This document shows positions 16,847 to 28,612 of a stretch of DNA of 37,299 bases, piece after piece; position 1 is the first letter of the stretch; every line of letters starts with the position of its first letter. Source of the stretch: a virus; IMG/VR virus record IMGVR_UViG_3300037069_002995, positions 1-37,299 of that record; one strand, given 5' to 3'. The notes beneath the pieces are model-generated. The model made no database searches. It was not told where the DNA came from and saw only the letters and a list, made by a program, of their open reading frames with translations. The translations under genes and the position numbers were made by a program.

Positions 16847-16911
16847 GCCGTCAGCGCCTGCGGCCGGCGACGGAGCCAGGACGGTCCCTCTCACCTGAGC
16901 GGAGTCCTGCC
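16847..16911 (+). promoter_or_regulatory. start-associated leader with ACGGAGCC
   Basis: ACGGAGCC (16870-16877) lies 34 nt before the ATG at 16912. CAGGAC and GTCCTG flank the GCGGAG ribosome-binding site as a 6-bp inverted repeat. This is the same arrangement as before the capsid and connector genes, so this gene may follow the late programme. Confidence 0.4.
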
Positions 16912-17208
16912 ATGACCCAGCCGGCGCCGGTCCCGGACGGCCTCCCCCCGCTGTTCGATACCGGAAATCAGATGATCGCGGTGACGCCGTGCCACATGGT
17001 GACCGGCAAGGTGGACGTCCCGGACGGCGAGCGCGGCGTGCTGACCATCCGGAACGCGAACACCACGCTGACCGTCATCCTGGCCAAGGCCGACGTGGTG
17101 CAGTGGATCGAGACCCTGGGCGGGCTGCGGGACGCGCTGTCCGGGGCCGCCCTGGTGCTGCCTTCGCCCGGTGACGCGCTCCGGATCGCGAACGGGCAGC
17201 AGCGGTGA
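16912..17208 (+). CDS. small beta-rich hypothetical protein
   Basis: The protein has 98 residues. It looks like one compact beta domain (HMVTGKVDVPDGERGVLTI, NTTLTVILAKADVVQWIETL) with a C-terminal helix. ATG after GCGGAG. It shares the divergent control region with the RHH regulator and is followed by two overlapping genes ending in a glycosyltransferase. No function is recognised; it may be an actinobacterial or phage-specific small protein. Confidence 0.7.
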   Translation: MTQPAPVPDGLPPLFDTGNQMIAVTPCHMVTGKVDVPDGERGVLTIRNANTTLTVILAKADVVQWIETLGGLRDALSGAALVLPSPGDALRIANGQQR

Positions 17209-17432
17209 GGCCGTCGCCCGGCCGGATCGTGCACTACGTCCCGGATGAGCACGCCGTCGTGCTGCCGGACCGGTGCCAGGCCGCGATCGTCACCGCCGCG
17301 GGCGACCCGGGCGGGGAGGTCGTGCTGGCCGTGTTCGCCCCCGGCGTCACCCGCCACGTCTTCGGCAGCGCGCACGACGAGGAGGCCAAGGCGCCGGGCA
17401 CCTGGCACTGGCCCGAGCGGACGGGCGGGTGA
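17205..17432 (+). CDS. small hypothetical protein
   Basis: The protein has 75 residues from a GTG overlapping the previous stop by 4 bp. The pattern RIVHYVPDEHA, CQAAIVTAAGD, VVLAVFAPG and GTWHWPER resembles a widespread family of actinophage and Streptomyces small proteins with a conserved HWPE end. The family has no established role. It overlaps the glycosyltransferase start by 4 bp. Confidence 0.7.
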   Translation: MRPSPGRIVHYVPDEHAVVLPDRCQAAIVTAAGDPGGEVVLAVFAPGVTRHVFGSAHDEEAKAPGTWHWPERTGG

Positions 17433-18807: not shown

Positions 18808-19983
18808 CTACTCGCCCTTGACGTTGACCAGCTGGTGCAGCTCGTGCCGGATCTCCACCAGGTCCGCGGAGTCGGCCATGACCTGCCCGATGTCCTTGTA
18901 CGCGCCCGGGATCTCGTCCAGGAACGCCCGGCCGGAACCGGACCGCCACTCGATGCCCTTCATGGCGGCGTGCAGGTCCTGCTCGGTGAAGACCTGCTTG
19001 GCCTTGCTGCGCGAGTACTCCCGGCCGGCCCCGTGCGGGCTGGAGTTCAGCGCCAGCGCGTTCCCCTTGCCGGTCACCACGTACGACGCGGCGGCCATCG
19101 ATCCGGGGATCAGGCCCGGCTTCCCTGCCGTGGCGTCGATCGCGCCCTTGCGGGACAGCCACACCAGCCGGCCGCCGTGGGTCTCCTGCTCGGTGTAGTT
19201 GTGGTGGCAGTTGACCTGCTCGGTCACGGCGAACGGGGTTCCCAGCCAGCCGGCGAAAACCTCGTGCACCCGGTCCATCATCTCGGCCCGGTTCAGCCAG
19301 GCGAACCGCTGGGCCCAGCGCAGGTCCCGGATGTAGGCCGCGAACTCCTCCGTGCCCTCAGCCAGGTACGCCAGGTCCGGGTCCGGCAGCCGGACGCCCG
19401 CCGCCTTGCAGATCCCCAGGGCCGTGCGGATGTGCGCGACGGCCAGCTTGTTGCCCACCCCGCGCGAGCCGGAGTGCAGGAACAGCCAGACCAGGCCGGC
19501 CTCGTCCGCGGAGACCTCGATGAAGTGGTTGCCGCCGCCGAGCGAGCCGAGCTGCAGCCGCCAGTTCGGGGCGATCTTCTCCGCGCTGCCCGCGCCGTAC
19601 AGTTCCTCCAGCTCGGACACCCGGCGGCGGGTTCCCGCGCTGCGGTGCCACTCGGCGTTGTAGTTGCCGGGCGACAGCGGGACGGCCTTCTCGATGCCCA
19701 GCCGCATGTCGGCCAGATCCCGGCCGGCCAGCTCGTCCCGGTGCACGCTGGTGCGCCACGCGATCATGCCGCAGCCGATATCCACGCCGACCGCGGCGGG
19801 CATGATCGCCCCCTCGGTGGGGATGACCGAGCCCACGGTGGCGCCCTTGCCCAGGTGGGCGTCGGGCATCAGCGCGATGTGCGGGTAGATGAACGGCATG
19901 GACGAGGCCGTGCGCGCCTGCTCGCGCGTCACCCGGTCCAGGATGGACGCCCAGCTCAGCAGCTTGCCGTTGATCCGTTCCAT
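18808..19983 (-). CDS. rtcB: RtcB-type RNA ligase
   Basis: RtcB joins RNA ends carrying 2',3'-cyclic phosphate (or 3'-phosphate) to 5'-OH ends using GTP and Mn2+, and can reseal tRNAs cut in the anticodon loop. The 391 residues have the full motif set: DAHLGKG (41-47), GVDIGCGM with the metal Cys at 71, GSLGGGNHFIEV with His 153, LHSGSRG with His 170, CHHNY (259-263), RKGA (278-281) and the guanylylated His in HGAGR (His 317). The start is the ATG after GGAAGGGAAG; a longer frame begins upstream but lacks an RBS. It is transcribed in the same direction as the tRNA array and is the first protein gene after its last tRNA. No archease, RtcA or PrfH is visible. Confidence 0.93.
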   Translation of the reverse strand: MERINGKLLSWASILDRVTREQARTASSMPFIYPHIALMPDAHLGKGATVGSVIPTEGAIMPAAVGVDIGCGMIAWRTSVHRDELAGRDLADMRLGIEKAVPLSPGNYNAEWHRSAGTRRRVSELEELYGAGSAEKIAPNWRLQLGSLGGGNHFIEVSADEAGLVWLFLHSGSRGVGNKLAVAHIRTALGICKAAGVRLPDPDLAYLAEGTEEFAAYIRDLRWAQRFAWLNRAEMMDRVHEVFAGWLGTPFAVTEQVNCHHNYTEQETHGGRLVWLSRKGAIDATAGKPGLIPGSMAAASYVVTGKGNALALNSSPHGAGREYSRSKAKQVFTEQDLHAAMKGIEWRSGSGRAFLDEIPGAYKDIGQVMADSADLVEIRHELHQLVNVKGE

Positions 19984-19998
19984 GGTTCGGCTTCCCTT

Positions 19999-20010
19999 CC
20001 GACCGGTCGG
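19999..20010. promoter_or_regulatory. 12-bp palindrome between last tRNA and rtcB
   Basis: CCGACCGGTCGG is a perfect palindrome 15 nt before the rtcB start and 31 nt from the end of tRNA-Arg(CCT). It overlaps the 5' edge of the ribosome-binding region. It could be an operator or a short hairpin used in processing; nothing decides between them. Confidence 0.35.
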
Positions 20011-20041
20011 ATGATCCAAGACCACAGCGTGAGCACCGGAG

Positions 20042-20114
20042 CTGGCCCTGCGGGACTCGAACCCGCGTCTGCGGCTTAGGAGGCCGCCGCCCTAATCCTC
20101 TGGACTAAGGGCCA
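20042..20114 (-). tRNA. tRNA-Arg (anticodon CCT)
   Basis: A 73-nt cloverleaf: acceptor TGGCCCT/AGGGCCA with G73, anticodon stem GCGGC/GCCGC, loop CTCCTAA and T-arm GCGGG-TTCGAGT-CCCGC. It reads AGG codons. Last tRNA before rtcB. CCA is not encoded. Confidence 0.9.
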
Positions 20115-20118
20115 CTGG

Positions 20119-20189
20119 AGGGACGCCAGGGAGTTGAACCCTGCCCTGCGGTTTTGCAGACCGCATCCCGCACCGGCAAGATACGCCCC
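20119..20189 (-). tRNA. tRNA-Cys (anticodon GCA)
   Basis: A 71-nt tRNA with acceptor GGGGCGT/GCGTCCC, U73, encoded CCA (20116-20118), anticodon stem GCGGT/ACCGC, loop CTGCAAA and T-loop TTCAACT. U73 fits the cysteine identity rule. Confidence 0.9.
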
Positions 20190-20194
20190 AGGAG

Positions 20195-20266
20195 ACAGCA
20201 GCGGTCAGGGGGAGTCGGACCCCCGGCCGGATAACCCGTGATTGCCGCTCCGGCGGCCACTGCTGT
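20195..20266 (-). ncRNA. tRNA-like or degenerate structured RNA
   Basis: A perfect 7-bp terminal stem (ACAGCAG/CTGCTGT) spans 72 nt, exactly a tRNA length. It contains a D-arm-like hairpin GCCGC-CGGA-GCGGC and a T-arm-like hairpin GGGGG-TCCGACT-CCCCC. However, 6 nt separate the T-arm from the terminal stem and no 5-bp anticodon stem with a 7-nt loop can be drawn. It may be a decayed tRNA or a separate small RNA in the array. Confidence 0.4.
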
Positions 20267-20271
20267 TCTCG

Positions 20272-20340
20272 CGCCCCTGCCCGGAGCCGAACCGGGCGTC
20301 TGTCCTTCGGAGGGACAGGGGAAGATCCGCTACCAGGGGC
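20272..20340 (-). tRNA. tRNA-Arg (anticodon CCG)
   Basis: A 69-nt tRNA with acceptor GCCCCTG/CAGGGGC, anticodon stem TGTCC/GGACA, loop CTCCGAA and T-arm CCCGG-TTCGGCT-CCGGG. The D-arm is unusually short (a GGA-TCT-TCC hairpin), so the fold is atypical. It reads CGG. Confidence 0.8.
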
Positions 20341-20344
20341 TTGC

Positions 20345-20572
20345 TTACTCAGGTCCTTCATCCCGCTCGTCACCGAGCCGGGTCACGACGGCCGGCGGCC
20401 GGGTTACCACGACCGGGCCTATCGTCCAGCCTTCCCGGCAGGCATGCTCCAGGATCACGCCGGCCGCCTGGGTGATCGAGATACCCGATTTCGCGGCCTC
20501 GGCGGCCAGGTACGCGTGGGTTGAGGTGCGGACCCGCATCTGCGTCGTCGTCCATCCAGGTGTGTCTGCCAT
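20345..20572 (-). CDS. small RHH-like DNA-binding protein
   Basis: The protein has 75 residues. QMRVRTSTHAYLAAEAAKSG and ISITQAAGVILEHAC look like a strand followed by two helices, the ribbon-helix-helix layout, though weaker than in the gene at 16447. TAACAT (20579-20584) lies 6 nt before the ATG, suggesting a leaderless message started inside the tRNA array. It sits between tRNA-Tyr and tRNA-Arg(CCG) with only a few bases on its 3' side. A role in controlling the array is possible but unproven. Confidence 0.6.
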   Translation of the reverse strand: MADTPGWTTTQMRVRTSTHAYLAAEAAKSGISITQAAGVILEHACREGWTIGPVVVTRPPAVVTRLGDERDEGPE

Positions 20573-20595
20573 ATGGACATGTTATCAGGACCTGG

Positions 20596-20676
20596 TGCGC
20601 CCGGATGGACTCGAACCACCGTACCCAGAGGGACCTGGTTTACAGCCAGGCGCGATTGCCGCTCTGCCACGGACGC
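20596..20676 (-). tRNA. tRNA-Tyr (anticodon GTA)
   Basis: A class II tRNA of 81 nt: acceptor GCGTCCG/CGGGCGC, A73, encoded CCA, anticodon stem CCTGG/CCAGG, loop CTGTAAA, a long variable arm, and T-arm GGTGG-TTCGAGT-CCATC. Bacterial tRNA-Tyr is class II, as here. Confidence 0.9.
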
Positions 20677-20680
20677 ATGG

Positions 20681-20752
20681 GGTGAGATACGGGAGTCGGA
20701 CCCGTCTTGCAGGGTTCACGGCCCTGCGCCTTCCCTCGACGGCAAATCCCAC
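20681..20752 (-). tRNA. tRNA-His (anticodon GTG), C33
   Basis: Acceptor GTGGGAT/ATCTCAC with C73, encoded CCA, and G at position -1 (20753), the histidine identity pair. Anticodon stem CAGGG/CCCTG with loop CCGTGAA: position 33 is C instead of U. The T-loop is TCCGACT (C55). Functional status is uncertain because of C33. Confidence 0.85.
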
Positions 20753-20757
20753 CATGA

Positions 20758-20835
20758 AGGGGAGCTGGCACGGACTGCTCCACCGCTGCACATAGCGAGG
20801 CTCCGGGTCATCCCCTACCTCTTTGCAGCTCCCCT
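20758..20835. ncRNA. structured element bounded by a 10-bp inverted repeat
   Basis: AGGGGAGCTG (20758-20767) and CAGCTCCCCT (20826-20835) are perfect inverted repeats spanning 78 nt, the size of a tRNA. Inside, CGCT-ATGTGC-AGCG (minus strand) resembles an anticodon arm with a 6-nt loop, but no T-loop motif is present. It is flanked by tRNA-His and tRNA-Val(CAC). It may be a decayed tRNA or a small RNA. Confidence 0.35.
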
Positions 20836-20837
20836 AG

Positions 20838-20910
20838 TGGACGCACCTGGGATCGAACCAGGGGCCTGCCGGGTGTGGACCGGCTGCTCGTACCGCTGAG
20901 CTATACGTCC
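20838..20910 (-). tRNA. tRNA-Val (anticodon CAC), C33
   Basis: Acceptor GGACGTA/TGCGTCC, A73, D-stem GCTC/GAGC, anticodon stem GCCGG/CCGGC, loop TCCACAC with C33, and T-arm CCTGG-TTCGATC-CCAGG. The T-arm is identical to that of tRNA-Val(GAC), so the two are probably duplicates. It would read GUG. Confidence 0.87.
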
Positions 20911-20915
20911 TTGAG

Positions 20916-20987
20916 TACGCCCGAAGGGAGTCGAACCCCCATTCCTGGATCCGTAATCCAGTGCCTTGTCCTTTAGACGACGGGCGC
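20916..20987 (-). tRNA. tRNA-Arg (anticodon ACG)
   Basis: Acceptor GCGCCCG/CGGGCGT, A73, anticodon stem CTGGA/TCCAG, loop TTACGGA, and T-arm GGGGG-TTCGACT-CCCTT. A34 would normally be deaminated to inosine to read CGU, CGC and CGA. Confidence 0.88.
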
Positions 20988-20998
20988 TAGGTACTGCG

Positions 20999-21071
20999 TG
21001 GTCGCACCTGGGATCGAACCAGGGGCCTTCGCCGTGTCAGGGCGACGCTCATACCGCTGAGCTACGCGACC
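20999..21071 (-). tRNA. tRNA-Val (anticodon GAC)
   Basis: Acceptor GGTCGCG/TGCGACC, A73, anticodon stem TCGCC/GGCGA, loop CTGACAC with the normal U33, and T-arm CCTGG-TTCGATC-CCAGG. It reads GUC and GUU. Confidence 0.92.
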
Positions 21072-21075
21072 ATGG

Positions 21076-21148
21076 CGGGACATACCGGATTTGAACCGGC
21101 GGCTTCCACCTTGACAGGGTGGCACTCTAACCGCTGAGTTAATGCCCC
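21076..21148 (-). tRNA. tRNA-Asp (anticodon GTC)
   Basis: Acceptor GGGGCAT/ATGTCCC, G73, encoded CCA, anticodon stem CCACC/GGTGG, loop CTGTCAA and T-loop TTCAAAT. G73 fits aspartate identity. Its 5' end overlaps the last codons of the membrane protein gene at 21139. Confidence 0.92.
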
Positions 21149-21792
21149 ATGGGGTACTGCGCTCCGGTGACAGGGCTCGAACCTGTGACATCCCGCTTAA
21201 CAGGCGGACGCTCTGCCAGCTGAGCTACACCGGATCGGGTCCGCCTCGTGCCGGCGGACGCCAGGATGATCATGGCCGAGCACGCGGCCAGCTCGTACGC
21301 CGGGTAGATGATCCCGGCCGGGACAGTGAGATCCGCGGCGGCCAGCGCGATGCCGGCCCCGGATGCGATCAGGACCCAGGGCACCATCGGCTCCTCGCCG
21401 CGCCAGGCGTTCGCGTAGGACGGGGCGAACGCCGCCAGGTCGGCCAGGACCGACGCCGCTACCGCCCAGGCCGGGGGAGCGACGGCCAGCAGGACCAGCC
21501 CGCCCGTGCCGAGGACCAGCGCGATGACGTCCAGCCGGCCGCACTCGCGGTCGCCGTGCCGGATGCCAGCACCCAGGACCGCCAGCGCGGTGACCGCCCC
21601 GGCGCCGGCCAGCAGCGCTCCCGGGAGCTGCCCGGCCTTCGCTGCTCCCGCCGAGGCGACCGCCATCGAGACGGCCCAGATCGCCCAGGACGCCAGCCGC
21701 GGGTCGGCCTCGTGCTTCCGGACGGCGGTGAGGTAGCCCCAGCTGCCCGCGATGACCAGCAGGCCGGCCAGGATCCCGGCGCCGGCCCGCAT
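21139..21792 (-). CDS. multi-pass membrane protein; frame runs through tRNA-Asn
   Basis: The frame has 217 residues from the ATG at 21792, which overlaps the preceding stop (TGATG). About six hydrophobic segments are visible (GAGILAGLLVIAGSWGYL, LASWAIWAVSMAVASAG, LLAGAGAVTALAVLGAG, VIALVLGTGGLVLLAVA, VPWVLIASGAGIALAA, YELAACSAMIILAS). The layout with a central PSYANAWRGEEPM loop resembles PQ-loop-type transporters. The last ~30 residues are the translation of tRNA-Asn and part of tRNA-Asp, so the native 3' end seems to have been lost where tRNAs were inserted. No function is assigned. Confidence 0.65.
   Translation of the reverse strand: MRAGAGILAGLLVIAGSWGYLTAVRKHEADPRLASWAIWAVSMAVASAGAAKAGQLPGALLAGAGAVTALAVLGAGIRHGDRECGRLDVIALVLGTGGLVLLAVAPPAWAVAASVLADLAAFAPSYANAWRGEEPMVPWVLIASGAGIALAAADLTVPAGIIYPAYELAACSAMIILASAGTRRTRSGVAQLAERPPVKRDVTGSSPVTGAQYPMGH
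21162..21234 (-). tRNA. tRNA-Asn (anticodon GTT)
   Basis: Acceptor TCCGGTG/CACCGGA, G73, anticodon stem TCCGC/GCGGG, loop CTGTTAA and T-arm ACAGG-TTCGAGC-CCTGT. The tRNA lies inside the open frame of the upstream membrane protein on the same strand. Confidence 0.92.
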
Positions 21793-22175
21793 CAGGCGGA
21801 AGCGGGCGTGCGGGCCATCCCCGGCAGCACCGGCTCGTGCACCAGGTGCAGCAGGTCGGGCCCGAAATGGCCGCGGATGACGGCGGTCACCGTCACGTAG
21901 GCGAACGGCTTGCAGGAGTGCAGGTCCAGCGAGGCGAACCCGGTGCCGTCCGGGTAGTCCCAGCACATCAGCGACCAGCCGGAGTAATCCCAGTGGCACA
22001 TCACGGCCAGGCCCAGCGGGCACTTCCCCGAGATGTCCAGGTCCAGGACGCTCATGCCCATCGCGCTGGCCAGCCGGGGGGAGAACAGCTCGGCGTCGGC
22101 GACCCGGACGTGCCTGCGGAGGGTGAACTCCGCGACCATCCGCTGCCGGTGAATCCCCGGCGCAAGATCCTTCAT
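21792..22175 (-). CDS. possible AdoMet-decarboxylase-like (SpeD-like) small protein
   Basis: The protein has 127 residues from an ATG with a strong G-rich ribosome-binding site (GGGAGGGCC). The start DLAPGIHRQRMVAEF and the later strand FASLDLHSCKPF recall small AdoMet-decarboxylase-type proteins reported in phages, where a DLx3IxRQR start and a CKPF element recur. The canonical pyruvoyl-forming Ser motif is not evident, so it may have another activity. It overlaps the membrane protein gene by one base, so the two are translationally coupled. The family call is tentative; the coding call is firm. Confidence 0.6.
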   Translation of the reverse strand: MKDLAPGIHRQRMVAEFTLRRHVRVADAELFSPRLASAMGMSVLDLDISGKCPLGLAVMCHWDYSGWSLMCWDYPDGTGFASLDLHSCKPFAYVTVTAVIRGHFGPDLLHLVHEPVLPGMARTPASA

Positions 22176-22246
22176 GGCCCTCCCTGTGCCCGCCGGCGAC
22201 TGCCGGGCTGCCCGGGAAATCACGATAACATACCGCAGTCAAGTGG

Positions 22247-22322
22247 TAGCGGAGGGCGGATTCGAACCGCCGTTCTCCGGCTTATGAGGCCGGCGAGGAC
22301 AACCGAACTCCTCTACTCCGCG
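22247..22322 (-). tRNA. initiator-like tRNA-Met (anticodon CAT)
   Basis: Acceptor CGCGGAG/CTCCGCT: bases 1 and 72 (C and U) cannot pair, the mark of bacterial initiators and the same C1-U72 arrangement as actinobacterial tRNA-fMet. A73 and CCA are encoded. Anticodon stem CCGGC/GCCGG has two of the three G-C pairs typical of initiators; loop CTCATAA. T-arm GGCGG-TTCGAAT-CCGCC. Confidence 0.85.
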
Positions 22323-22323
22323 G

Positions 22324-22397
22324 TGGCCCCAGCCGGATTCGAACCGGCGATCGCCGCCTTGAAAGGACGGTGGCTTAGCCCGCTTGCCCATGGGGTC
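22324..22397 (-). tRNA. tRNA-Glu (anticodon TTC)
   Basis: Acceptor GACCCCA/TGGGGCC has an A2-C71 mismatch. Anticodon stem CCGTC/GGCGG, loop CTTTCAA, T-arm GCCGG-TTCGAAT-CCGGC, A73. It is separated by 1 nt from the initiator tRNA, so processing must cut between them. Confidence 0.87.
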
Positions 22398-22408
22398 GTG
22401 GTACTCCG

Positions 22409-22481
22409 TAGCCCTGACCGGATTCGAACCGGCGTGACCGGCTTGAGGGGCCGGCATCCTCGTCCGCTAGATGACGGGGCC
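22409..22481 (-). tRNA. tRNA-Glu (anticodon CTC), C33
   Basis: Acceptor GGCCCCG/CAGGGCT with a C6-A67 mismatch, A73, anticodon stem CCGGC/GCCGG, loop CCCTCAA with C33, and T-arm GCCGG-TTCGAAT-CCGGT. It would read GAG. Confidence 0.85.
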
Positions 22482-22557
22482 GTGGGTGAACACTGTTAAT
22501 CCTGCACGGATGACGGATGTTTCGCCCGCACGTGCAATCACGCTGCGTACTGGGGTC

Positions 22558-22587
22558 TTGACGGTGAGGTCTCCGCGTGCCTACGGT
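22558..22587 (+). promoter_or_regulatory. sigma-70-like promoter for the small secreted peptide
   Basis: TTGACG (22558-22563), an 18-bp spacer and TACGGT (22582-22587). A transcript from about 22594 would have a 27-nt leader with the GGGAG ribosome-binding site. It points against the tRNA array and is the best two-box promoter in the window. Confidence 0.65.
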
Positions 22588-22620
22588 ACCGCTGAGCGAA
22601 CCCGAGACAGGGAGATCATC

Positions 22621-22746
22621 ATGTCCAGGACCAAGAAGGCCATCATCATCGTCCTCGCCGCGGCCGGCCTCGCGGCCAGCGCCGGCGCCATCGCCGAGTC
22701 GGGCGGCGGGCCGGCCCACGCCGTGGCGTTCTACTACCGCGGCTAG
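22621..22746 (+). CDS. tiny secreted peptide precursor (41 aa)
   Basis: ATG after GGGAGATCATC. MSRTKK is a basic n-region, about 7-24 a hydrophobic core (AIIIVLAAAGLAASAGAI), followed by several signal-peptidase-like AxA sites (ASA, AIA, AHA). Cleavage after AHA would leave only VAFYYRG; cleavage after AIA would leave 16 residues. The gene has its own two-box promoter and lies opposite to the array between tRNA-Glu(CTC) and tRNA-Arg(TCT). A secreted signal or antimicrobial peptide is possible; no receptor or exporter gene is recognised nearby. Confidence 0.65.
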   Translation: MSRTKKAIIIVLAAAGLAASAGAIAESGGGPAHAVAFYYRG

Positions 22747-22747
22747 G

Positions 22748-22821
22748 CGCGCTGACCGGGATTCGGACCCGGGACCTCCCGCTTAGAAGGCGGTTGCTCT
22801 GTCCGGCTGAGCTACCAGCGC
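22748..22821 (-). tRNA. tRNA-Arg (anticodon TCT)
   Basis: Acceptor GCGCTGG/TCAGCGC, G73, anticodon stem ACCGC/GCGGG, loop CTTCTAA, and T-arm CCGGG-TCCGAAT-CCCGG with C55 instead of U55. It reads AGA and AGG. Confidence 0.9.
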
Positions 22822-22843
22822 ATGGCGGGCGGCCCCGGGCCGG

Positions 22844-23221
22844 CTACAGGTACGCCAGCGGGTGGGACGGGCGGGAGTCGAAGTCCTCCACCGACAGGGC
22901 CAGGATCAGCACGTGGAAGATCCGCGCGGCCCGCCTGGTGTTCCCGTCCAGCTTCCCCCACGGGCAGATGAACGGCGCGACCCTGGCCGGGTCGTCGCGG
23001 ACCGGGCCGTACGTCCAGCCCAGCTGGATCAGCCGCTGCACCCGCAGGTCGTGCACCTCGCCCGGGGTCAGGCCGTTGCGGGCCAGCCGCACCGATTCCA
23101 GGACCGCGGCCCGGCGGCTGCCCGGCAGCTCCCGGTAGGTGTGGGCCACGGCGGCTTCATGGTCATACAGGACGTTCAGCGCGGCGTAGCAGATCTCGGC
23201 GATTTCCTGTTCGGTCAGCAC
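22844..23221 (-). CDS. RyR-domain protein
   Basis: A GTG at 23221 after AAAGGGGG gives 125 residues; an upstream in-frame ATG (23281) lacks an RBS. Two helical parts are seen: EIAEICYAALNVLYDHEAA, then LARNGLTPGEVHDLRVQRLI, followed by the RyR-like signature GWTYGPVRDDPARVAPFICP with a conserved PW. Small RyR proteins occur in many phages and bacteria near nucleotide-sensing or defence genes, with no settled role. It lies in the array next to tRNA-Arg(TCT). Confidence 0.7.
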   Translation of the reverse strand: MLTEQEIAEICYAALNVLYDHEAAVAHTYRELPGSRRAAVLESVRLARNGLTPGEVHDLRVQRLIQLGWTYGPVRDDPARVAPFICPWGKLDGNTRRAARIFHVLILALSVEDFDSRPSHPLAYL

Positions 23222-23301
23222 AGCTGCCGACCCCCTTTCCCCCGGCTGGAAGCGAGCGGGGTCCGGGCTCGTGAAGATCATGACGATACCAGCCGGCCGG
23301 G

Positions 23302-23375
23302 TGGGCTGACTCGGGATTGAACCGAGGACGACGCGGGTTAAAGGCCCGCCGCTCGTGCCGCTGAGCTACCAGCCC
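23302..23375 (-). tRNA. tRNA-Lys (anticodon TTT), C33
   Basis: Acceptor GGGCTGG/TCAGCCC, A73, anticodon stem GCGGG/CCCGC, loop CCTTTAA with C33 (the usual bacterial loop is CTTTTAA), and T-loop TTCAATC. It would read AAA and AAG. Confidence 0.87.
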
Positions 23376-23376
23376 G

Positions 23377-23452
23377 TAGGCCCGACCGGATTTGAACCGG
23401 TGACGCACCCCGTATAAGAGGGCCGCTCATATCCAGGCTGAGCTACGGGCCG
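23377..23452 (-). tRNA. tRNA-Ile (anticodon TAT)
   Basis: Acceptor CGGCCCG/CGGGCCT with a C1-U72 mismatch, A73, anticodon stem GCCCT/GGGGT, loop CTTATAC and T-arm ACCGG-TTCAAAT-CCGGT. A UAU anticodon for the rare AUA codon is unusual in bacteria, which normally use lysidine-modified CAT. Confidence 0.8.
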
Positions 23453-23455
23453 TGG

Positions 23456-23528
23456 TAGCGAGAGCGGGAACCGAGCCCGCGGCCTCCCCGTTATGGGCGG
23501 GGCGCTCTGCCAGCTGAGCTATCTCGCT
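23456..23528 (-). tRNA. tRNA-Met, elongator (anticodon CAT), C33
   Basis: Acceptor AGCGAGA/TCTCGCT is fully paired, so it is not an initiator. A73 and CCA are encoded. Anticodon stem CCCCG/CGGGG, loop CCCATAA with C33. The T-loop is CTCGGTT (C54, G58), a second departure from consensus. Confidence 0.85.
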
Positions 23529-23537
23529 GCGAGAAGC

Positions 23538-23570
23538 GGCAGCCGCCCGGCCTGAGCGCGGGCGGCTGCC
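23538..23570 (-). terminator. strong hairpin after the secreted-protein gene
   Basis: GGCAGCCGCCCG (23538-23549) pairs with CGGGCGGCTGCC (23559-23570), 12 bp with a 9-nt loop, just downstream of the stop of the gene at 23589. It has no T-tract on either strand, so it may slow or process transcripts instead of ending them. Confidence 0.5.
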
Positions 23571-23588
23571 AGAGGTGAAACGGGACGG

Positions 23589-24116
23589 TTAGCCGTCGTG
23601 CCCGTTCGAGGCCACGCCGGAAGCGGTGATCTGGGTCTCGGAGAACTTCGGCGCGTCAGCCGGGTTCGTGTCGCACCCGTGGTGGTGATGATGGCTGCGC
23701 TTCAGGACCGTGAACTGGAACAGCCGGTACGTGCCCCACCCGGTGGCGTGCTGGTACCTGCCGGTGCCGCCGAGGAACTTCCAGGTGCCGGTCTCGGCGT
23801 AGGTGACGGTGCAGTTCTGCAGGTTCAGCCTCGGATGGCCGGCCCAGGTGGTCTTGTGCCCGGCGTTGACCGTGCCGTGCTCGAACGTGAAGACATCCAG
23901 GTTCGGGGTTGCCTGGTTGTCGGTGCCGTCATGGCCGCGGACCGGGCCGTAGGCGTTCACGGTGCCGTCCGGGTTGTCCGTGCTGATCGAGATGGTGACG
24001 AACTCAGGCTTCAGGTCGTGCCGGGGGCTCGCGCTGGCTGCTCCTGCGGTCAGCGGGACCGCCACGGCGGCTGCGAACGCGACGGCCGCAGCCGTGCGCC
24101 ATCCTGGGAATCTCAT
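23589..24116 (-). CDS. secreted barrel-like protein (dirigent/allene-oxide-cyclase-like)
   Basis: The protein has 175 residues with a clear signal peptide (RTAAAVAFAAAVAVPLTAG, cleavage after ASA). The mature part has FTFEHGTVNAGHKTTW, CTVTYAETGTWKFLGGTG and RYQHATGWGTYRLFQ. The GGTGRY-ATG pattern is that of the small beta-barrels related to dirigent proteins and allene oxide cyclase. It ends in a His-run (HHHHH). AAGGA precedes the ATG. A secreted protein inside a tRNA array is unexpected; a moron acting on the host surface is one explanation. Confidence 0.7.
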   Translation of the reverse strand: MRFPGWRTAAAVAFAAAVAVPLTAGAASASPRHDLKPEFVTISISTDNPDGTVNAYGPVRGHDGTDNQATPNLDVFTFEHGTVNAGHKTTWAGHPRLNLQNCTVTYAETGTWKFLGGTGRYQHATGWGTYRLFQFTVLKRSHHHHHGCDTNPADAPKFSETQITASGVASNGHDG

Positions 24117-24223
24117 GTGCGTGATCGTCCTTCCGGGTCTGGCCGGGAGCCGGCACCGATGCCGCCCCCTAGCACAACCGGACAGCTTAGCCCAGTCCCG
24201 CACATGATCGCCAGCATCACGAG

Positions 24224-24298
24224 TGGGCGCCCCAGGAATCGAACCTGACTGTACTTGCTTATCAGGCAAGCCTCTTGCCACCAGCCGAGCTGGCGCCC
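24224..24298 (-). tRNA. tRNA-Ile (anticodon GAT)
   Basis: Acceptor GGGCGCC/GGCGCCC, A73, anticodon stem CTTGC/GCAAG, loop CTGATAA, T-loop TTCGATT. The D-stem is short (CTC/GAG) with a long D-loop. It reads AUC and AUU. Confidence 0.9.
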
Positions 24299-24311
24299 GT
24301 GAGCAGATCAG

Positions 24312-24395
24312 AGGAGGGTAGAGGTGTCGATCCCCACGGCCTCGCGACCGCCTCCGGTTTTCGAGACCGGGTGCACCGCCGGGTGCGTACCCTCC
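24312..24395 (-). tRNA. tRNA-Ser (anticodon CGA)
   Basis: A class II tRNA of 84 nt: acceptor GGAGGGT/ACCCTCC, U73, anticodon stem CCGGT/ACCGG, loop CTCGAAA and a long variable arm. The T-stem has only four pairs and the T-loop is ATCGACA (A54), so the T-arm is weakened. Confidence 0.8.
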
Positions 24396-24399
24396 GCGG

Positions 24400-24491
24400 A
24401 GGAGCGTGCGGGATTCGAACCCGCGGAGGACGGTCACCCGCCTCACCGCCTTAGCAGGACGGCGCCTTCAGCCAGCTCGTGCCAACGCTCC
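24400..24491 (-). tRNA. tRNA-Ser (anticodon GCT)
   Basis: A class II tRNA of 92 nt: acceptor GGAGCGT/ACGCTCC, U73, anticodon stem CCGTC/GGCGG, loop CTGCTAA, long variable arm, T-arm CGGG-TTCGAAT-CCCG. It reads AGC and AGU. Confidence 0.88.
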
Positions 24492-24501
24492 GGGTACTGC
24501 G

Positions 24502-24586
24502 TGCGCGCGGGGAGAGTCGAACTCCCACGCCCTTGCGGGCATACGGGTCTGAGCCGTACGCGTATACCAGTTCCAGCCACGCGCGC
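24502..24586 (-). tRNA. tRNA-Leu (anticodon CAG)
   Basis: A class II tRNA of 85 nt: acceptor GCGCGCG/CGCGCGC, A73, anticodon stem TACGG/CCGTA, loop CTCAGAC, variable arm GCCC-GCAA-GGGC, T-arm GGGAG-TTCGACT-CTCCC. It reads CUG, the main Leu codon in high-GC genomes. Confidence 0.9.
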
Positions 24587-24589
24587 GAG

Positions 24590-24676
24590 GAGATCACGAC
24601 AGCTCGATGACTGCCGCCGATGTGCATGAGGTTCAGGTCAGGCGTGCCGTCGCCAGTTCTCTCATGTCGTGATCTC
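24590..24676. ncRNA. structured element bounded by a 12-bp inverted repeat
   Basis: GAGATCACGACA (24590-24601) and TGTCGTGATCTC (24665-24676) are perfect inverted repeats enclosing 63 nt, between tRNA-Gly and tRNA-Leu. Inside, on the minus strand, ATGAG/CTCAT and GGCG/CGCC can form further stems. No protein frame or tRNA fits. It is the strongest candidate for a non-tRNA structured RNA in the array. Confidence 0.5.
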
Positions 24677-24679
24677 AAG

Positions 24680-24752
24680 AGCGGTTGACGGGGTTCGAAC
24701 CCGCGGCCTTCACCTTGGCAAGGTGACGCGCTGCCAGCTGCGCCACAACCGC
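24680..24752 (-). tRNA. tRNA-Gly (anticodon GCC)
   Basis: Acceptor GCGGTTG/CAACCGC, U73 (usual for glycine), anticodon stem TCACC/GGTGA, loop TTGCCAA and T-arm GCGGG-TTCGAAC-CCCGT. It reads GGC and GGU. Confidence 0.92.
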
Positions 24753-24766
24753 ATTAACTAGTCTTC

Positions 24767-24970
24767 ATGAACTTCCGGCTGATCTCCTGCACGGCCGGGC
24801 TGCTGCTCGCGGCGGCCGGGCTGGCGCTCGCGCTGTCCTGGCACCTCGACCCCGGGTGGGCGAAGGGCGCCGCGTGGTGGTTCCTGGTGGCCGGGTACCT
24901 GACGACGGCCTTCAGCGAGCCGTGGAGGCTCCGCCGCGATCGACGGCTCAGAGCCCCGACCCAGATTTGA
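24767..24970 (+). CDS. small two-helix membrane protein
   Basis: The protein has 67 residues with two transmembrane segments (about 5-24, LISCTAGLLLAAAGLALALS; about 32-50, GAAWWFLVAGYLTTAFS) and a basic end. TAACTA at 24755-24760 lies 6 nt before the ATG, suggesting a leaderless message. It is transcribed against the tRNA array, and its last 19 bp overlap tRNA-Thr(GGT) in antisense. No function is recognised. Confidence 0.6.
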   Translation: MNFRLISCTAGLLLAAAGLALALSWHLDPGWAKGAAWWFLVAGYLTTAFSEPWRLRRDRRLRAPTQI

Positions 24971-25025
24971 ACTGGGGACCTCGGCCTTACCATGGCCGCG
25001 CTACTGCCGGCTGAGCTACCGGGGC
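24952..25025 (-). tRNA. tRNA-Thr (anticodon GGT)
   Basis: Acceptor GCCCCGG/TCGGGGC, U73, anticodon stem CGGCC/GGCCG, loop ATGGTAA, T-arm CCCAG-TTCAAAT-CTGGG. It reads ACC and ACU. Its 3' end overlaps the convergent membrane-protein gene. Confidence 0.88.
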
Positions 25026-25080
25026 GGGTGCGCGTTGCGTACGCGCTGGCTGCCGGTGAATGCCTGGGGCAGCCGTGAAG

Positions 25081-25151
25081 CTGAGGGCGCTGGATTCGAA
25101 CCAGCATTGCGGGGGCCAAAACCCCGGGGCCTGCCGTTAACCGAGCCCCCA
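25081..25151 (-). tRNA. tRNA-Gln (anticodon TTG)
   Basis: Acceptor TGGGGGC/GCCCTCA, G73, anticodon stem CGGGG/CCCCG, loop TTTTGGC, T-arm GCTGG-TTCGAAT-CCAGC. The weak first pair (U1-A72) and G73 match glutamine identity features. Confidence 0.9.
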
Positions 25152-25188
25152 TGGACCTGGTGGCAGAGCGGAACTTACGCTGTGCCAT

Positions 25189-25752
25189 GTGCCAGGGCAG
25201 AGCATCCTGAACGACCGCGAGGCGGTCACCGCGGCGGTCCGCCGGAGCAGCTCGATGGCCGGGACGCTGAAGCTGCTGGGCCTGCGGCCGGCCGGCGGGA
25301 ACTACCAGGCGCTGCGGCTGGCATGCCGGAAGTTCGGGCTGGAACCTCCGGTCTACCGGGGCGGCCCGCGCCAGGGAAAGCCCGCTGCGAGGCCGCCGAA
25401 GATCAGCTGGCCGGATCATGCGCAGCTGCGGATGCTGGTGGCGGCCACGTCCTACGCGGAGGCCGGCCGCCAGCTGGGCGTGTCCGGGACCGCGATCCGC
25501 AAGCGGCTGCAGCGGCCTGCGGAACCGAGCCGGCTACCCGTCTCGAACGGGTCACCTGCCCCTTACAAGGGGGCCGCTCTGCCAGCTGAGCTAAGCCGGC
25601 GTGACTGGCCGGTGCCGGTGGCCGTGGCCCTGGTGGCCGCCGCCGCCGCGGCTGGCTGCATGCTGGCCCTGGCCATCCGGGACGGATCTGCCGTCGCGCT
25701 CGCCGCCGCCGCCGGATGCTGCGCGCTCGTGCTGGCGACCGCGCTGGCCTGA
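25189..25752 (+). CDS. HTH protein fused in frame, through an antisense tRNA, to a membrane segment
   Basis: The frame has 187 residues from a GTG; TACGCT at 25176-25181 lies 7 nt upstream (leaderless). Residues about 8-50 (AVTAAVRRSSSMAGTLKLLG, then ALRLACRKFGLEPP) match the HTH that precedes HNH domains in phage endonucleases. A second HTH lies at about 84-108 (YAEAGRQLGVSGTAIRKRL). Residues about 114-138 are the antisense of tRNA-Thr(TGT). The end has two hydrophobic helices. Either it is one odd protein, or an HTH gene lost its stop and a separate membrane peptide starts near 25612. The HTH part is the reliable part. Confidence 0.6.
   Translation: MPGQSILNDREAVTAAVRRSSSMAGTLKLLGLRPAGGNYQALRLACRKFGLEPPVYRGGPRQGKPAARPPKISWPDHAQLRMLVAATSYAEAGRQLGVSGTAIRKRLQRPAEPSRLPVSNGSPAPYKGAALPAELSRRDWPVPVAVALVAAAAAAGCMLALAIRDGSAVALAAAAGCCALVLATALA
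25528..25600 (-). tRNA. tRNA-Thr (anticodon TGT)
   Basis: Acceptor GCCGGCT/AGCCGGC, U73, D-stem GCTC/GAGC, anticodon stem GCCCC/GGGGC, loop CTTGTAA, T-arm ACCCG-TTCGAGA-CGGGT. It lies antisense within the frame at 25189-25752. Confidence 0.92.
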
Positions 25753-25753
25753 G

Positions 25754-25838
25754 TGTCCGAGGCGGGACTTGAACCCGCACGCCCCTTCCGGAGCACACGG
25801 CCCTCAACCGTGCGTGGCTGCCGTTACACCACCCGGAC
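25754..25838 (-). tRNA. tRNA-Leu (anticodon GAG)
   Basis: A class II tRNA of 85 nt: acceptor GTCCGGG/CTCGGAC, A73, anticodon stem CACGG/CCGTG, loop TTGAGGG, a long variable arm, and T-arm GCGGG-TTCAAGT-CCCGC. It reads CUC and CUU. It starts 1 nt after the HTH gene's stop. Confidence 0.88.
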
Positions 25839-25882
25839 GTGTTGTCCTGGCATGAACCAGGACGCGGAGTTATGCTCACCGC

Positions 25883-26947
25883 ATGAATATTCCGGTATCA
25901 CCGTACGTAGTTGGTCCGACGAGGTACCGGCGCAGGCTCGCGTACCTCGTCGGCAGCCTCCCGGGCGCCGGGCCGCTGGAGGCCATGGGCAGCGCCCTGT
26001 GGTACCTGGGCGATTCGCTGAGGTACCTGCCCGGCGGCGAGACCGGCAAGCGGGCCGGCTGGATTGAGGAGGAGCTGCGCGCGGTCGGCCGGCTGCCCGG
26101 CATCACCGTGCTGTCTGACGCCTACGAGGACTACGAGCACACCCCGCACTTCCGCGCTGAGGCGTGGCCGATGACGGCAGGCGACTTCGGGCCCGCCATG
26201 CAGCTGATCCCGTCCTTCACCGAGGAATGGCCGTACTTCCGGCAGCTCCGCGAGGACTACGACCGGCCGGACCTGCTGCTCCAGCGCGGCGTGCCCGCGC
26301 CGCTGGACCTGTCCCTGTACGCCTTCAAGGGCGAGGGGCTCGCTCCCGGCCTGCTGGATCCCATTACCGCGGCCAAGGCCGACGCGGTGCTGGCCGTCAA
26401 TACCGAGGCGCGCGGCCGGGTCATGTTCCAGCTCGAAAGCCCGGCGGCGGTGGCCATGGCGGCGGACGGCCAGGCCAAGTTCGCGGCCCGGCTGCTGGCC
26501 CAGCTGCCCGGCCAGTGCCCCGGCACCATCTGGGGCGTCCACCTCTGCTTCGGCGACTGGCATCACAAGGCCATGACGCACCTGGGGAACGCGGCCCCGC
26601 TGGCCGACCTGGTGACCGCGCTGGCGGCCGAGTGGCCGGGGCTGGTCCCGTGGCAGGTCCTGCACCTGCCGATGGCCGCGGCGGACGAGCCGCCGTCGCT
26701 GGACCCGGCATGGTACGAGCCGCTGCGCGGGATCCGCGAGACGCTGCCGGCCGGGTGCCAGCTGGCCGCCGGGTTCGCGCACGCCGGCCGCTCGCTGAAA
26801 GAGCTGCGGCAGCTCCAGGACACGATCGAGGCGATCTGGGGGGCCGAGGTGATGGTGGCCGCCGCCTGCGGGCTGGGCCGCTACCCGGACCCGGACGAGG
26901 CGCTGAAGGTGCTGACCAAGATGGCCATCCTGGCCGGGCCGCGCTGA
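25883..26947 (+). CDS. MetE/UROD-superfamily protein
   Basis: The protein has 354 residues. The start (YLVGSLPGAGPLEAM, YLPGGETGKRAGWIEEELR) and the metal-site motifs GVHLCFGDWHHK and AAACGLGRYPD recall the catalytic half of cobalamin-independent methionine synthase, with its His-x-Cys and late Cys zinc ligands. The N-terminal half of true MetE is absent, so the substrate is uncertain: a methyl transfer to a thiol, or another UROD-fold reaction. CTGGCA, an 18-bp spacer and TATGCT (25871-25876) lie 6 nt before the ATG, so the message is probably leaderless. It stands alone, opposed to the tRNA array. Confidence 0.75.
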   Translation: MNIPVSPYVVGPTRYRRRLAYLVGSLPGAGPLEAMGSALWYLGDSLRYLPGGETGKRAGWIEEELRAVGRLPGITVLSDAYEDYEHTPHFRAEAWPMTAGDFGPAMQLIPSFTEEWPYFRQLREDYDRPDLLLQRGVPAPLDLSLYAFKGEGLAPGLLDPITAAKADAVLAVNTEARGRVMFQLESPAAVAMAADGQAKFAARLLAQLPGQCPGTIWGVHLCFGDWHHKAMTHLGNAAPLADLVTALAAEWPGLVPWQVLHLPMAAADEPPSLDPAWYEPLRGIRETLPAGCQLAAGFAHAGRSLKELRQLQDTIEAIWGAEVMVAAACGLGRYPDPDEALKVLTKMAILAGPR

Positions 26948-26948
26948 G

Positions 26949-27020
26949 AGCCCCTTGCAGGTACCGGTCCTGCGGCCTTCCGCTTACGAAACGGATGCTC
27001 CGCCATTGAGCTAAAGGGGC
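26949..27020 (-). tRNA. tRNA-Thr (anticodon CGT)
   Basis: Acceptor GCCCCTT/AAGGGGC, U73, anticodon stem TCCGT/GCGGA, loop TTCGTAA. The T-arm is GCAGG-ACCGGTA-CCTGC, lacking the conserved TTC, so the elbow contact is likely altered. It reads ACG. Confidence 0.82.
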
Positions 27021-27024
27021 GTGG

Positions 27025-27095
27025 CTCCGGGAGCTGGGGTCGAACCAACGTTGACGGCTTCAGGGGCCGGCGTCCTGCCATTAGACGATCCCGGA
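27025..27095 (-). tRNA. tRNA-Gln (anticodon CTG), C33
   Basis: Acceptor TCCGGGA/TCCCGGA, G73, encoded CCA, anticodon stem CCGGC/GCCGT with one mismatch, loop CCCTGAA with C33, T-arm GTTGG-TTCGACC-CCAGC. It would read CAG, the main Gln codon here. Confidence 0.82.
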
Positions 27096-27099
27096 ATGG

Positions 27100-27174
27100 T
27101 GGGCGAGGAGGGAGTCGCACCCTCATCTGACCGGGTTTGAGCCGGCCCGCTCTGCTAGTTGGACGTACTCGCCC
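27100..27174 (-). tRNA. tRNA with CAA anticodon (Leu), short variable loop
   Basis: Acceptor GGGCGAG/CTCGCCC, A73, encoded CCA, anticodon stem GCCGG/CCGGT, loop CTCAAAC, T-arm GAGGG-TGCGACT-CCCTC (G55). A CAA anticodon means Leu, but the variable region is only 5 nt, whereas bacterial tRNA-Leu is class II. It may be charged poorly or with another amino acid. Confidence 0.72.
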
Positions 27175-27178
27175 GTTG

Positions 27179-27250
27179 TGCGCCGCGAGAGGATCGAACT
27201 CCCGACACGCCGGTTAAGAGCCGGCTGCTCTACCGCTGAGCTAGCGGCGC
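27179..27250 (-). tRNA. tRNA-Lys (anticodon CTT)
   Basis: Acceptor GCGCCGC/GCGGCGC, A73, anticodon stem GCCGG/CCGGC, loop CTCTTAA with normal U33, T-arm GGGAG-TTCGATC-CTCTC. It reads AAG. Confidence 0.92.
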
Positions 27251-27254
27251 GCGG

Positions 27255-27326
27255 AGCCCTAGACCGGAATTGAACCGACATTCCCTGGTTGGAAGCCAGG
27301 CACACTAGCCATTGTGTTACTAGGGC
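27255..27326 (-). tRNA. tRNA-Gly (anticodon TCC)
   Basis: Acceptor GCCCTAG/CTAGGGC, U73, anticodon stem CCTGG/CCAGG, loop CTTCCAA, T-arm GTCGG-TTCAATT-CCGGT. It reads GGA and GGG. Confidence 0.9.
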
Positions 27327-27330
27327 GTGG

Positions 27331-27402
27331 CGGGACCTGGAGATACTGAGACTCCGACCTGCGGTATTTCACACCGCCGCTCTGCCGCTGAGCTAAGGCC
27401 CC
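27331..27402 (-). tRNA. tRNA-Phe (anticodon GAA)
   Basis: Acceptor GGGGCCT/AGGTCCC, G73, encoded CCA, anticodon stem GCGGT/ACCGC, loop GTGAAAT. The T-arm GGAGT-CTCAGTA-TCTCC has a mismatch at its loop end and lacks the usual TTCGA loop, so the elbow may be altered. Confidence 0.82.
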
Positions 27403-27415
27403 ATGTTCTGCTACG

Positions 27416-27487
27416 TCGGGAACCCGGGTGCCGCCCCCGGTTTCTCCTGGCTCCAGACCAGGCGGATTGCTGTCTTCCTCGCTCCCG
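27416..27487 (-). tRNA. tRNA-Pro (anticodon TGG), C33, divergent T-loop
   Basis: Acceptor CGGGAGC/GTTCCCG with C1-G72 and A73 (proline identity), D-stem GGA/TCC, anticodon stem CCTGG/CCAGG, loop TCTGGAG with C33. The T-arm is CCGGG-GGCGGCA-CCCGG, with no conserved T-loop base at 54-55. It is the most divergent tRNA still forming all four stems. Confidence 0.7.
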
Positions 27488-27488
27488 G

Positions 27489-27563
27489 TCGGGCTGGCCG
27501 TATTCGAAACGGCGGCCTCCCGGCCCCCAGCCGGATGCTCTGACCAAACTGAGCTACAGCCCG
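27489..27563 (-). tRNA. tRNA-Pro (anticodon GGG)
   Basis: Acceptor CGGGCTG/CAGCCCG with C1-G72 and A73, anticodon stem TCCGG/CCGGG, loop CTGGGGG, T-arm GCCGT-TTCGAAT-ACGGC. It reads CCC and CCU and lies 1 nt from tRNA-Pro(TGG). Confidence 0.9.
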
Positions 27564-27570
27564 TAAACCT

Positions 27571-27626
27571 GAGCAGGGACCGGGTGACCCCGGCCGCGGA
27601 GTGTGTGCCGCGCTTGCGCCCTGCTC
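27571..27626. ncRNA. 56-nt three-way-junction element
   Basis: GAGCAGGG (27571-27578) and CCCTGCTC (27619-27626) pair perfectly and enclose two hairpins, CCGGG-TGAC-CCCGG and CGCGG-AGTGTGTG-CCGCG, giving a compact mini-cloverleaf. It is too short for a tRNA and holds no credible frame. It may be a shrunken tRNA or a processing signal between tRNA-Pro genes. Confidence 0.4.
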
Positions 27627-27630
27627 TCCG

Positions 27631-27704
27631 TCTGGCTAGCAGGATTTGAACCTGCGGCCTTCTCGTCCCGAACGAGACGCGCTGCCAAGCTGCGCTATAG
27701 CCAG
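27631..27704 (-). tRNA. tRNA-Pro (anticodon CGG)
   Basis: Acceptor CTGGCTA/TAGCCAG with C1-G72 and A73, D-stem GCGC/GCGC, anticodon stem TCTCG/CGAGA, loop TTCGGGA, T-arm GCAGG-TTCAAAT-CCTGC. The D-stem, anticodon stem and variable loop are identical to those of the neighbouring tRNA-Ala(CGC). Confidence 0.9.
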
Positions 27705-27724
27705 TCGATGTTTTACGTGAAACG

Positions 27725-27797
27725 TGGAGCTAGCCGGAATCGAACCGGCGGCCTTCTCGGTGCGAACGAGACGCGCTACCTGCTGCGCTATAGCCCC
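27725..27797 (-). tRNA. tRNA-Ala (anticodon CGC)
   Basis: Acceptor GGGGCTA/TAGCTCC contains G3-U70, the key alanine identity pair, and A73. Anticodon stem TCTCG/CGAGA, loop TTCGCAC, T-arm GCCGG-TTCGATT-CCGGC. It reads GCG. Confidence 0.92.
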
Positions 27798-27801
27798 AGA
27801 T

Positions 27802-27866
27802 GGCAGCTGATTTCAGGTCCGGTCATGGGAGCCCTCGCGGACTGCCGGACGCCCAGCTCAGCTGCC
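27802..27866. ncRNA. structured element with nested inverted repeats
   Basis: GGCAGCTGA (27802-27810) and TCAGCTGCC (27858-27866) pair, and inside them GTCCGG (27817-27822) pairs with CCGGAC (27845-27850), with GGG-AG-CCC within. It lies between two tRNA-Ala genes. There is no tRNA fold or credible frame. Confidence 0.4.
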
Positions 27867-27878
27867 GAAGCTGTCCCG

Positions 27879-27951
27879 TGGAGCCTAGGAGATTCGAACT
27901 CCTGACCTTCTGCATGCCATGCAGACGCGCTACCAGCTGCGCCAAGGCCCC
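27879..27951 (-). tRNA. tRNA-Ala (anticodon GGC)
   Basis: Acceptor GGGGCCT/AGGCTCC with G3-U70 and A73, anticodon stem TCTGC/GCAGA, loop ATGGCAT, T-arm AGGAG-TTCGAAT-CTCCT. It reads GCC and GCU. Confidence 0.92.
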
Positions 27952-27956
27952 GTAGT

Positions 27957-28008
27957 GATGCTGCGCCCGGCCCGGGTGTCTCATACCCACCCGGGACGGG
28001 CCAGCATC
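27957..28008. promoter_or_regulatory. long hairpin between tRNA-Ala(GGC) and tRNA-Trp
   Basis: GATGCTG (27957-27963) pairs with CAGCATC (28002-28008), continued by GC-rich CCGGCCCGGGT/ACCCGGGACGG segments with small bulges. It lacks a T-tract. It separates tRNA-Trp from the rest of the array, so it may mark a processing site or a pause. Confidence 0.45.
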
Positions 28009-28123
28009 ATGTCGGCGGGGATGGCGCCCCGCCTGTGGTGCTCACGCTATGGTCTTGTCAAGTGGCCGGCGAGCGGCCTCGGTGACATGCGCCCTCCCTC
28101 GCTCTCGCTCGGGCTGACGGTCG

Positions 28124-28197
28124 CAGGGGCGGAGGGAATCGAACCCCCATTCCGCCGGTTTTGGAGACCGGCCGCCGAGCCAGTGTGGCTCGCCCCT
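28124..28197 (-). tRNA. tRNA-Trp (anticodon CCA)
   Basis: Acceptor AGGGGCG/CGCCCCT with G73 (tryptophan identity), anticodon stem CCGGT/ACCGG, loop CTCCAAA, T-arm GGGGG-TTCGATT-CCCTC. The D-arm can fold as GAGCCA-CAC-TGGCTC, much stronger than a normal D-stem. It is the first tRNA of the array in the direction of transcription. Confidence 0.88.
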
Positions 28198-28473: not shown

Positions 28474-28543
28474 CCCGTTAGGCAAGTTAATTTTCACGAC
28501 TAACTACCGGGGCCTGAGCTGCGGAACTATGCTGGTGCCCAGT

Positions 28544-28612
28544 GCACGGCCTCCGCTGCCAGGACTCCGGGGGAGCTGCCACCGCCCACCCCACTCGCCG
28601 CGGAGGCCGTGC
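28544..28612 (+). promoter_or_regulatory. RBS-burying hairpin before the dehydratase gene
   Basis: GCACGGCCTCCGC (28544-28556) and GCGGAGGCCGTGC (28600-28612) are a perfect 13-bp inverted repeat with a 43-nt loop. The GGAGG ribosome-binding site (28603-28607) is in the 3' strand, and the ATG (28613) follows immediately. Folding would block initiation, as before the terminase gene. A TATGCT box lies at 28528-28533. Confidence 0.6.

Follow-up and report, generated by a model that had tools for sequence, protein, structure and literature searches.

tRNA array of the window

The IMG/VR virus record IMGVR_UViG_3300037069_002995, analyzed here over its whole length of 37,299 bases (hereafter the window; guanine-plus-cytosine (GC) content ~70%), carries an array of tRNA genes, several of which encode C rather than U at position 33 (C33), directly before the anticodon. 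U33 is regarded as indispensable for the U-turn of the anticodon and is taken to mark genuine tRNAs. The window encodes terminase, portal, head protease, and major capsid genes, and we classify it on sequence grounds as a fragment of a tailed phage. Relatives of its capsid in sequenced genomes lie in prophage-like loci of Streptomyces, Actinoallomurus, and Actinomadura (50–55% identity), which makes an actinobacterial host likely. Phage records contained no near DNA match to the window.

Base 33 was C in six ARAGORN-called tRNAs of the window and T in the remaining 29 (Table 1). A first-pass annotation, made from the sequence alone, had listed seven C33 tRNAs. Those for His, Val, Glu, Lys, Met, and Gln were borne out by ARAGORN, and the five of them that were aligned with Infernal showed the same loops; the seventh, Pro-TGG, we treat as a tRNA-like relic because its T loop reads GGCGGCA, with no TTC, and because both programs rejected it. 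The anticodon arm of this relic, CCTGG-TCTGGAG-CCAGG, is near that of a called Pro-TGG in a relative. Infernal alignments gave the same loop register as ARAGORN for Val, Met, Lys, and Gln, and for His via the tRNA-Sec model, so the loop placement held in a second program and misplacement was ruled out as the source of C33. The single Gln-CTG anticodon-stem mismatch noted by the annotation was verified as a C-T pair, and its statement that the other window tRNAs keep U33 agreed with the 29 ARAGORN calls and with Phe-GAA and Ser-CGA, inspected by eye. No independent second assembly of the array turned up when the viral collection was searched by a Lys-tRNA pattern, so confidence in the base calls of the window contig comes from the recurrence of the pattern in many independent relatives.

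Table 1 Positions of the tRNA genes and other features of the window
Feature	Coordinates	Strand	Remarks
Major capsid protein gene	6077..7336	+	Gene by which the phage family was traced
Sugar epimerase and glycosyltransferase genes	11653-18451 and 28529-29644		Several genes
RtcB RNA ligase gene	18808..20025	-	Immediately downstream of the tRNA array
tRNA array	20041..28197	-	35 ARAGORN tRNAs plus Phe-GAA, Ser-CGA, and the Pro-TGG relic; all 20 amino acids
tRNA-His(GTG)	20678..20752	-	C33, loop ccgtgaa; G-1 encoded at 20753, read directly from the sequence
tRNA-Val(CAC)	20837..20910	-	C33, loop tccacac
Initiator-like tRNA-Met(CAT)	22244..22322	-	C1-U72 mismatch; U33 kept
tRNA-Glu(CTC)	22408..22481	-	C33, loop ccctcaa
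tRNA-Lys(TTT)	23300..23375	-	C33, loop cctttaa; C33 common to relatives G007 and G010
tRNA-Ile(TAT)	23376-23452
Elongator tRNA-Met(CAT)	23453..23528	-	C33, loop cccataa; relative G010 also C33
tRNA-like gene reading as Ser-CGA	24313-24395	-	Anticodon and T33 read by eye
tRNA-Gln(CTG)	27022..27095	-	C33, loop ccctgaa; relative G037 (94% identical) also C33
tRNA-Phe(GAA)	27331-27402	-	Added by Infernal; T33 by eye
Pro(TGG)-like relic	about 27408..27485	-	C33; called by neither ARAGORN nor Infernal

C33 across the phage family

The survey of related phage arrays that the annotation had proposed extended the pattern well beyond the window. We defined a family of 17 related actinophage-type contigs of soil viruses, found mainly via the capsid gene and carrying arrays of up to 39 tRNAs. 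The viruses of this family have about 35–38 tRNA genes each. With the window excluded, C33 was present in 68/379 tRNAs of these relatives (18%), with no A or G at that position. Random viral contigs, each chosen by a U33 tRNA, itself left out of the count, had 11 C, 3 A, and 1 G at position 33 among 469 tRNAs (Fisher p about 2e-15 for 68/379 vs 11/469). The arrays of the cultured actinophages Annadreamy, Pumpernickel, Asterius, and ScoobyDoobyDoo together contained 4/117 C33 tRNAs (Fisher p 3e-5 vs the relatives). C33 is therefore a trait of the phage lineage.

This anticodon-loop base is unlike that of host-type tRNAs: an Actinoallomurus genome, a stand-in that may not be the host, had C33 in 1/47 tRNAs and U33 in 46/47. 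In 119 Actinomycetota genomes, one tRNA pattern matched 17 C33 and 556 U33 sequences, and the C33 cases were nearly all Val-GAC, Thr-GGT, or Ala-GGC. That single generic pattern matches the family only once and was applied solely to cells and random viruses. Cellular examples are the Actinomycetota records L487–L503, with loops TCGACAA, TCGGTAA, and TCGGCAG. Six further GC-rich contigs with C33 tRNAs (L167, L174, L179, L190, L246, and L271) lacked this capsid gene and, by that measure, probably belong to other phage groups, though their records may be partial.

Including the window, the family had 74 C and no A or G at position 33 among 414 tRNAs, as the annotation had claimed for the window itself. 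When position 33 was changed to A or G in silico, ARAGORN still detected nearly all these tRNAs, so the lack of purines is real and blindness of the program to A33 or G33 was ruled out. Since position 33 admits no purine, a pyrimidine is, by this sequence pattern, still required there.

Integrity of the C33 tRNAs

Within the family, stem mismatch rates were equal in C33 and U33 tRNAs, as was conservation of U8, T54, T55, C56, A58, and 53-61. The elongator Met tRNAs of the window and G010 are nearly identical save for the anticodon stem (CCCCG/CGGGG vs CTGCC/GGCAG), which is fully paired in both, a compensated change with C33 retained. Ser-GGA in three phages followed the same pattern of compensated stem change with C33 kept. 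Such changes point to selection on a working RNA, and the cloverleaf is preserved in these C33 lineages. The window tRNA-His also retains its encoded G-1. Apart from the Pro-TGG relic, stems and invariant bases were not lost along with U33. The view of the annotation that this is not random decay stood up to these comparisons: as far as the sequences reveal, the C33 pattern is not decay.

Gains, losses, and GC-ward bias

On the capsid tree of 16 phages, parsimony called for no fewer than 60 changes at position 33, a figure that gene exchange among phages could reduce. One Arg-CCT pair is 96% identical yet differs in state (C in G019, T in G014), and Glu-CTC and Gly-TCC provided U33/C33 ortholog pairs at about 90% identity. 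C33 was kept over 6–15% divergence in the Lys-TTT, Met, and Gln-CTG groups.

Other invariant positions changed as well. T8 was replaced by C in 3.9% of family tRNAs, 3.4% of those in other GC-rich viral contigs, and 0.6% of those in low-GC contigs; the corresponding values were 3.6%, 2.8%, and 0.0% for T55-to-C and 2.6%, 1.2%, and 0.0% for A58-to-G. The rate of C56-to-T was not raised in the family or the GC-rich viral contigs relative to low-GC contigs. The raised T8-to-C, T55-to-C, and A58-to-G rates, with no rise in C56-to-T, point to GC-ward substitution under selection that would be weaker than in the host.

Isoacceptor distribution and t6A37

C33 was spread over about 28 isoacceptors, and ~80% of family tRNAs keep U33. 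It was frequent in Val, Asn (6/13), and Lys-TTT (5/13), with Thr-TGT at 2/8, rare beside G37 (3/72), and absent from Cys, Trp, Tyr-GTA, Ile, Arg-ACG, Leu-CAG, Gly-GCC, Ser-GCT, and initiator Met. There was no relation between C33 and codon use (Spearman -0.16, p 0.32). Trp, Cys, Leu-CAG, and initiator Met (fMet) are reported targets of VapC toxins; taken together, in a post hoc grouping, they had C33 in 0/43 tRNAs (p 2e-4).

Initiator Met (0/8) and Ile (0/18) never had C33; for Ile against other ANN-decoding elongators p was 0.012, in a test picked after seeing the data. C33 has been reported to act as an anti-determinant for TsaD-TsaB-TsaE, the bacterial enzyme that forms N6-threonylcarbamoyladenosine at position 37 (t6A37) (PMC9654439), and not for the human mitochondrial t6A37 enzyme (PMC7102964). 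Because bacterial-type isoleucyl-tRNA synthetase (IleRS) relies strongly on t6A37 as a determinant (PMC9976931), the lack of C33 in Ile fits its removal where t6A37 is needed for charging. A selected role for C33, perhaps via loss of t6A37, is possible.

Interpretation

The lineage-wide excess, the restriction to C, the lack of other damage, the many independent changes, the retained stems, and the GC-ward bias at other positions lead us to favor C33 as a tolerated, GC-driven replacement of U33 in working phage tRNAs, to which we assign a probability of roughly one half. GC-ward substitution pressure in these ~65–71% GC phages would keep generating C33, with C the sole tolerated substitute for U33 and selection weaker on phage tRNAs than on host tRNAs. 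C33 would be weeded out where U33 or t6A37 matters, as in initiator Met and Ile, and elsewhere its effect on decoding would be small, so that selection would be merely relaxed and not positive. Several observations weigh against such a replacement. The rate of change at position 33 is ~5 times that of T55-to-C or T8-to-C, so tolerance there must be far higher than at positions 8 and 55. The C33 rate is unequal among isoacceptors (permutation p 5e-4), and several C33 lineages persist across divergence. GC-rich genomes can have little C33, as in the cultured arrays of Asterius (2/26) and ScoobyDoobyDoo (1/27) and in the host-type Actinoallomurus genome described above, and the C33 rate of our high-GC comparison set is inflated by the inclusion of contigs chosen by a C33 tRNA. 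C33 also occurs in tRNA-Ile(GAT) of AT-rich phages, beyond the reach of GC pressure.

The annotation had offered evasion, editing, and impairment as explanations. That C33 was selected because it protects the tRNAs of the phage against anticodon nucleases of the host, or against a host enzyme that reads U33 or the dependent t6A37, is possible but doubtful. Precedent exists (PMC11555353): nuclease-blocking anticodon-loop changes of phage tRNAs have been described (PMC10264068), and the Lys, Thr, and Asn tRNAs of T5 act against AriB via such changes (PMC12409363). The isoacceptors cut by AriB are often C33 in the family (Lys-TTT, Asn, and Thr-TGT, with the counts given above), C33 recurs unevenly among isoacceptors and far above the rate at other invariant sites, and an RtcB gene adjoins the window array. 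Against this, C33 extends over about 28 isoacceptors while most tRNAs retain U33, GC bias explains much of the pattern, and changes did not concentrate in the tRNAs taken as targets of VapC-type nucleases, the 0/43 there being a post hoc figure. The RtcB gene was not conserved among the C33-rich relatives, which ruled it out as a constant partner of C33. A stronger version would make C33 a device that places phage tRNAs beyond host enzymes reading the U33 loop, with t6A37 blocked in ANN-decoding tRNAs to yield a pool chemically distinct from that of the host and immune to nucleases or modifiers needing t6A37, and with the phage-wide C33 of Ile(GAT) as a second, older instance; we regard this as unlikely.

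Impaired tRNAs, or tRNAs becoming pseudogenes, would account for the Pro-TGG relic and the Gln-CTG stem mismatch, and in yeast tRNA-Gln the growth defect caused by U33C equaled that of a slow-CAG-decoding mutant (PMC3664417). The intact stems and invariant bases, the compensated anticodon stems, the G-1 of tRNA-His, and the lack of A33 or G33 run counter to impairment, which we judge quite improbable. The least probable of these explanations is editing of C33 to U33 in the RNA. It would fit the occurrence of C alone where U is expected in otherwise intact structures, and an analogous C8-to-U8 editing of tRNAs occurs in Methanopyrus. No PF00383 deaminase was found in the 210, 190, 164, and 140 kb relatives bearing 6–12 C33 tRNAs, which rules out a phage-encoded cytidine deaminase (CDA)-type enzyme for these large contigs; both PF00383 matches were in contigs with 3 C33 tRNAs each, and the scattered appearance and disappearance of C33 among orthologs also speaks against editing. 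A host editor or some unrelated enzyme would be a conceivable agent.

Phage tRNAs with altered anticodon loops are already known as a kind. Recurrent replacement of U33 by C33 in a single phage family, spanning about 28 isoacceptors, is apparently new, and a full-text search of an open-access library gave no paper treating C33 and U33 together in phage tRNAs. The family constitutes a natural experiment on the need for U33, with dozens of flips to C and no other damage. With its matched U33/C33 ortholog pairs, the influence of C33 on t6A37, on charging and decoding, and on cleavage by defense enzymes that cut tRNA can be tested directly, and such tests bear on why phages carry tRNAs at all.

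Other features of the window

The cultured phage Pumpernickel likewise has RtcB located within its tRNA array. The window and several relatives carry a tRNA-Ile with anticodon TAT, which is unusual, as bacteria normally decode AUA by a lysidine-modified CAT tRNA. The sugar epimerase and glycosyltransferase genes suggest that the phage DNA or particles may be glycosylated.

Comparison with known systems

Methanopyrus resembles the family in that its genome is GC-rich and has C at an invariant U in many tRNA genes. The position there is 8 and not 33, and the C33-richest phages lack a deaminase of that superfamily (PF00383). Mycobacteriophages of cluster C1, whose anticodon-loop mutations have been proposed as a means of evading anticodon nucleases, likewise have large actinophage tRNA arrays with non-host loop bases (van den Berg 2023, PMC10264068). 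The accessible part of that paper contains no discussion of position 33; mycobacteriophage Asterius carries C33 in its Val-CAC and Val-GAC tRNAs. In contrast to cluster C1, the window family changed one invariant position to one base in about 28 isoacceptors (18%), and its VapC-type targets, where tested, were without C33. The eukaryotic initiator tRNA (PMC9023262) is a natural functional tRNA with C33, as in the window family, whereas in the window C33 is found in elongators and the initiator-like Met retains U33. Certain phage loops (tcgacaa is one) match exactly those of the actinobacterial cellular U32-C33 tRNAs (Val-GAC, Thr-GGT, and Ala-GGC), but the cellular cases are nearly all these three G34 isoacceptors, and the phage set is broader and mostly C32-C33.

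A different C33 tRNA, Ile(GAT) with loop CCGATAA or TCGATAA, was present in many unrelated phages of 30–63% GC, mostly with an 8-base D loop. It was found in contigs L169, L176, L198, L255, and others and in the cultured records L505, L506, L509, and L510, and was confirmed in Klebsiella, Salmonella, Caulobacter (loop tcgataa), and Sulfitobacter phages. There, a single isoacceptor has C33 over many phage groups, including AT-rich ones, whereas Ile in the window family never has C33. By the reported enzyme preferences, C33 in phage Ile(GAT) should block the t6A37 needed by bacterial IleRS.

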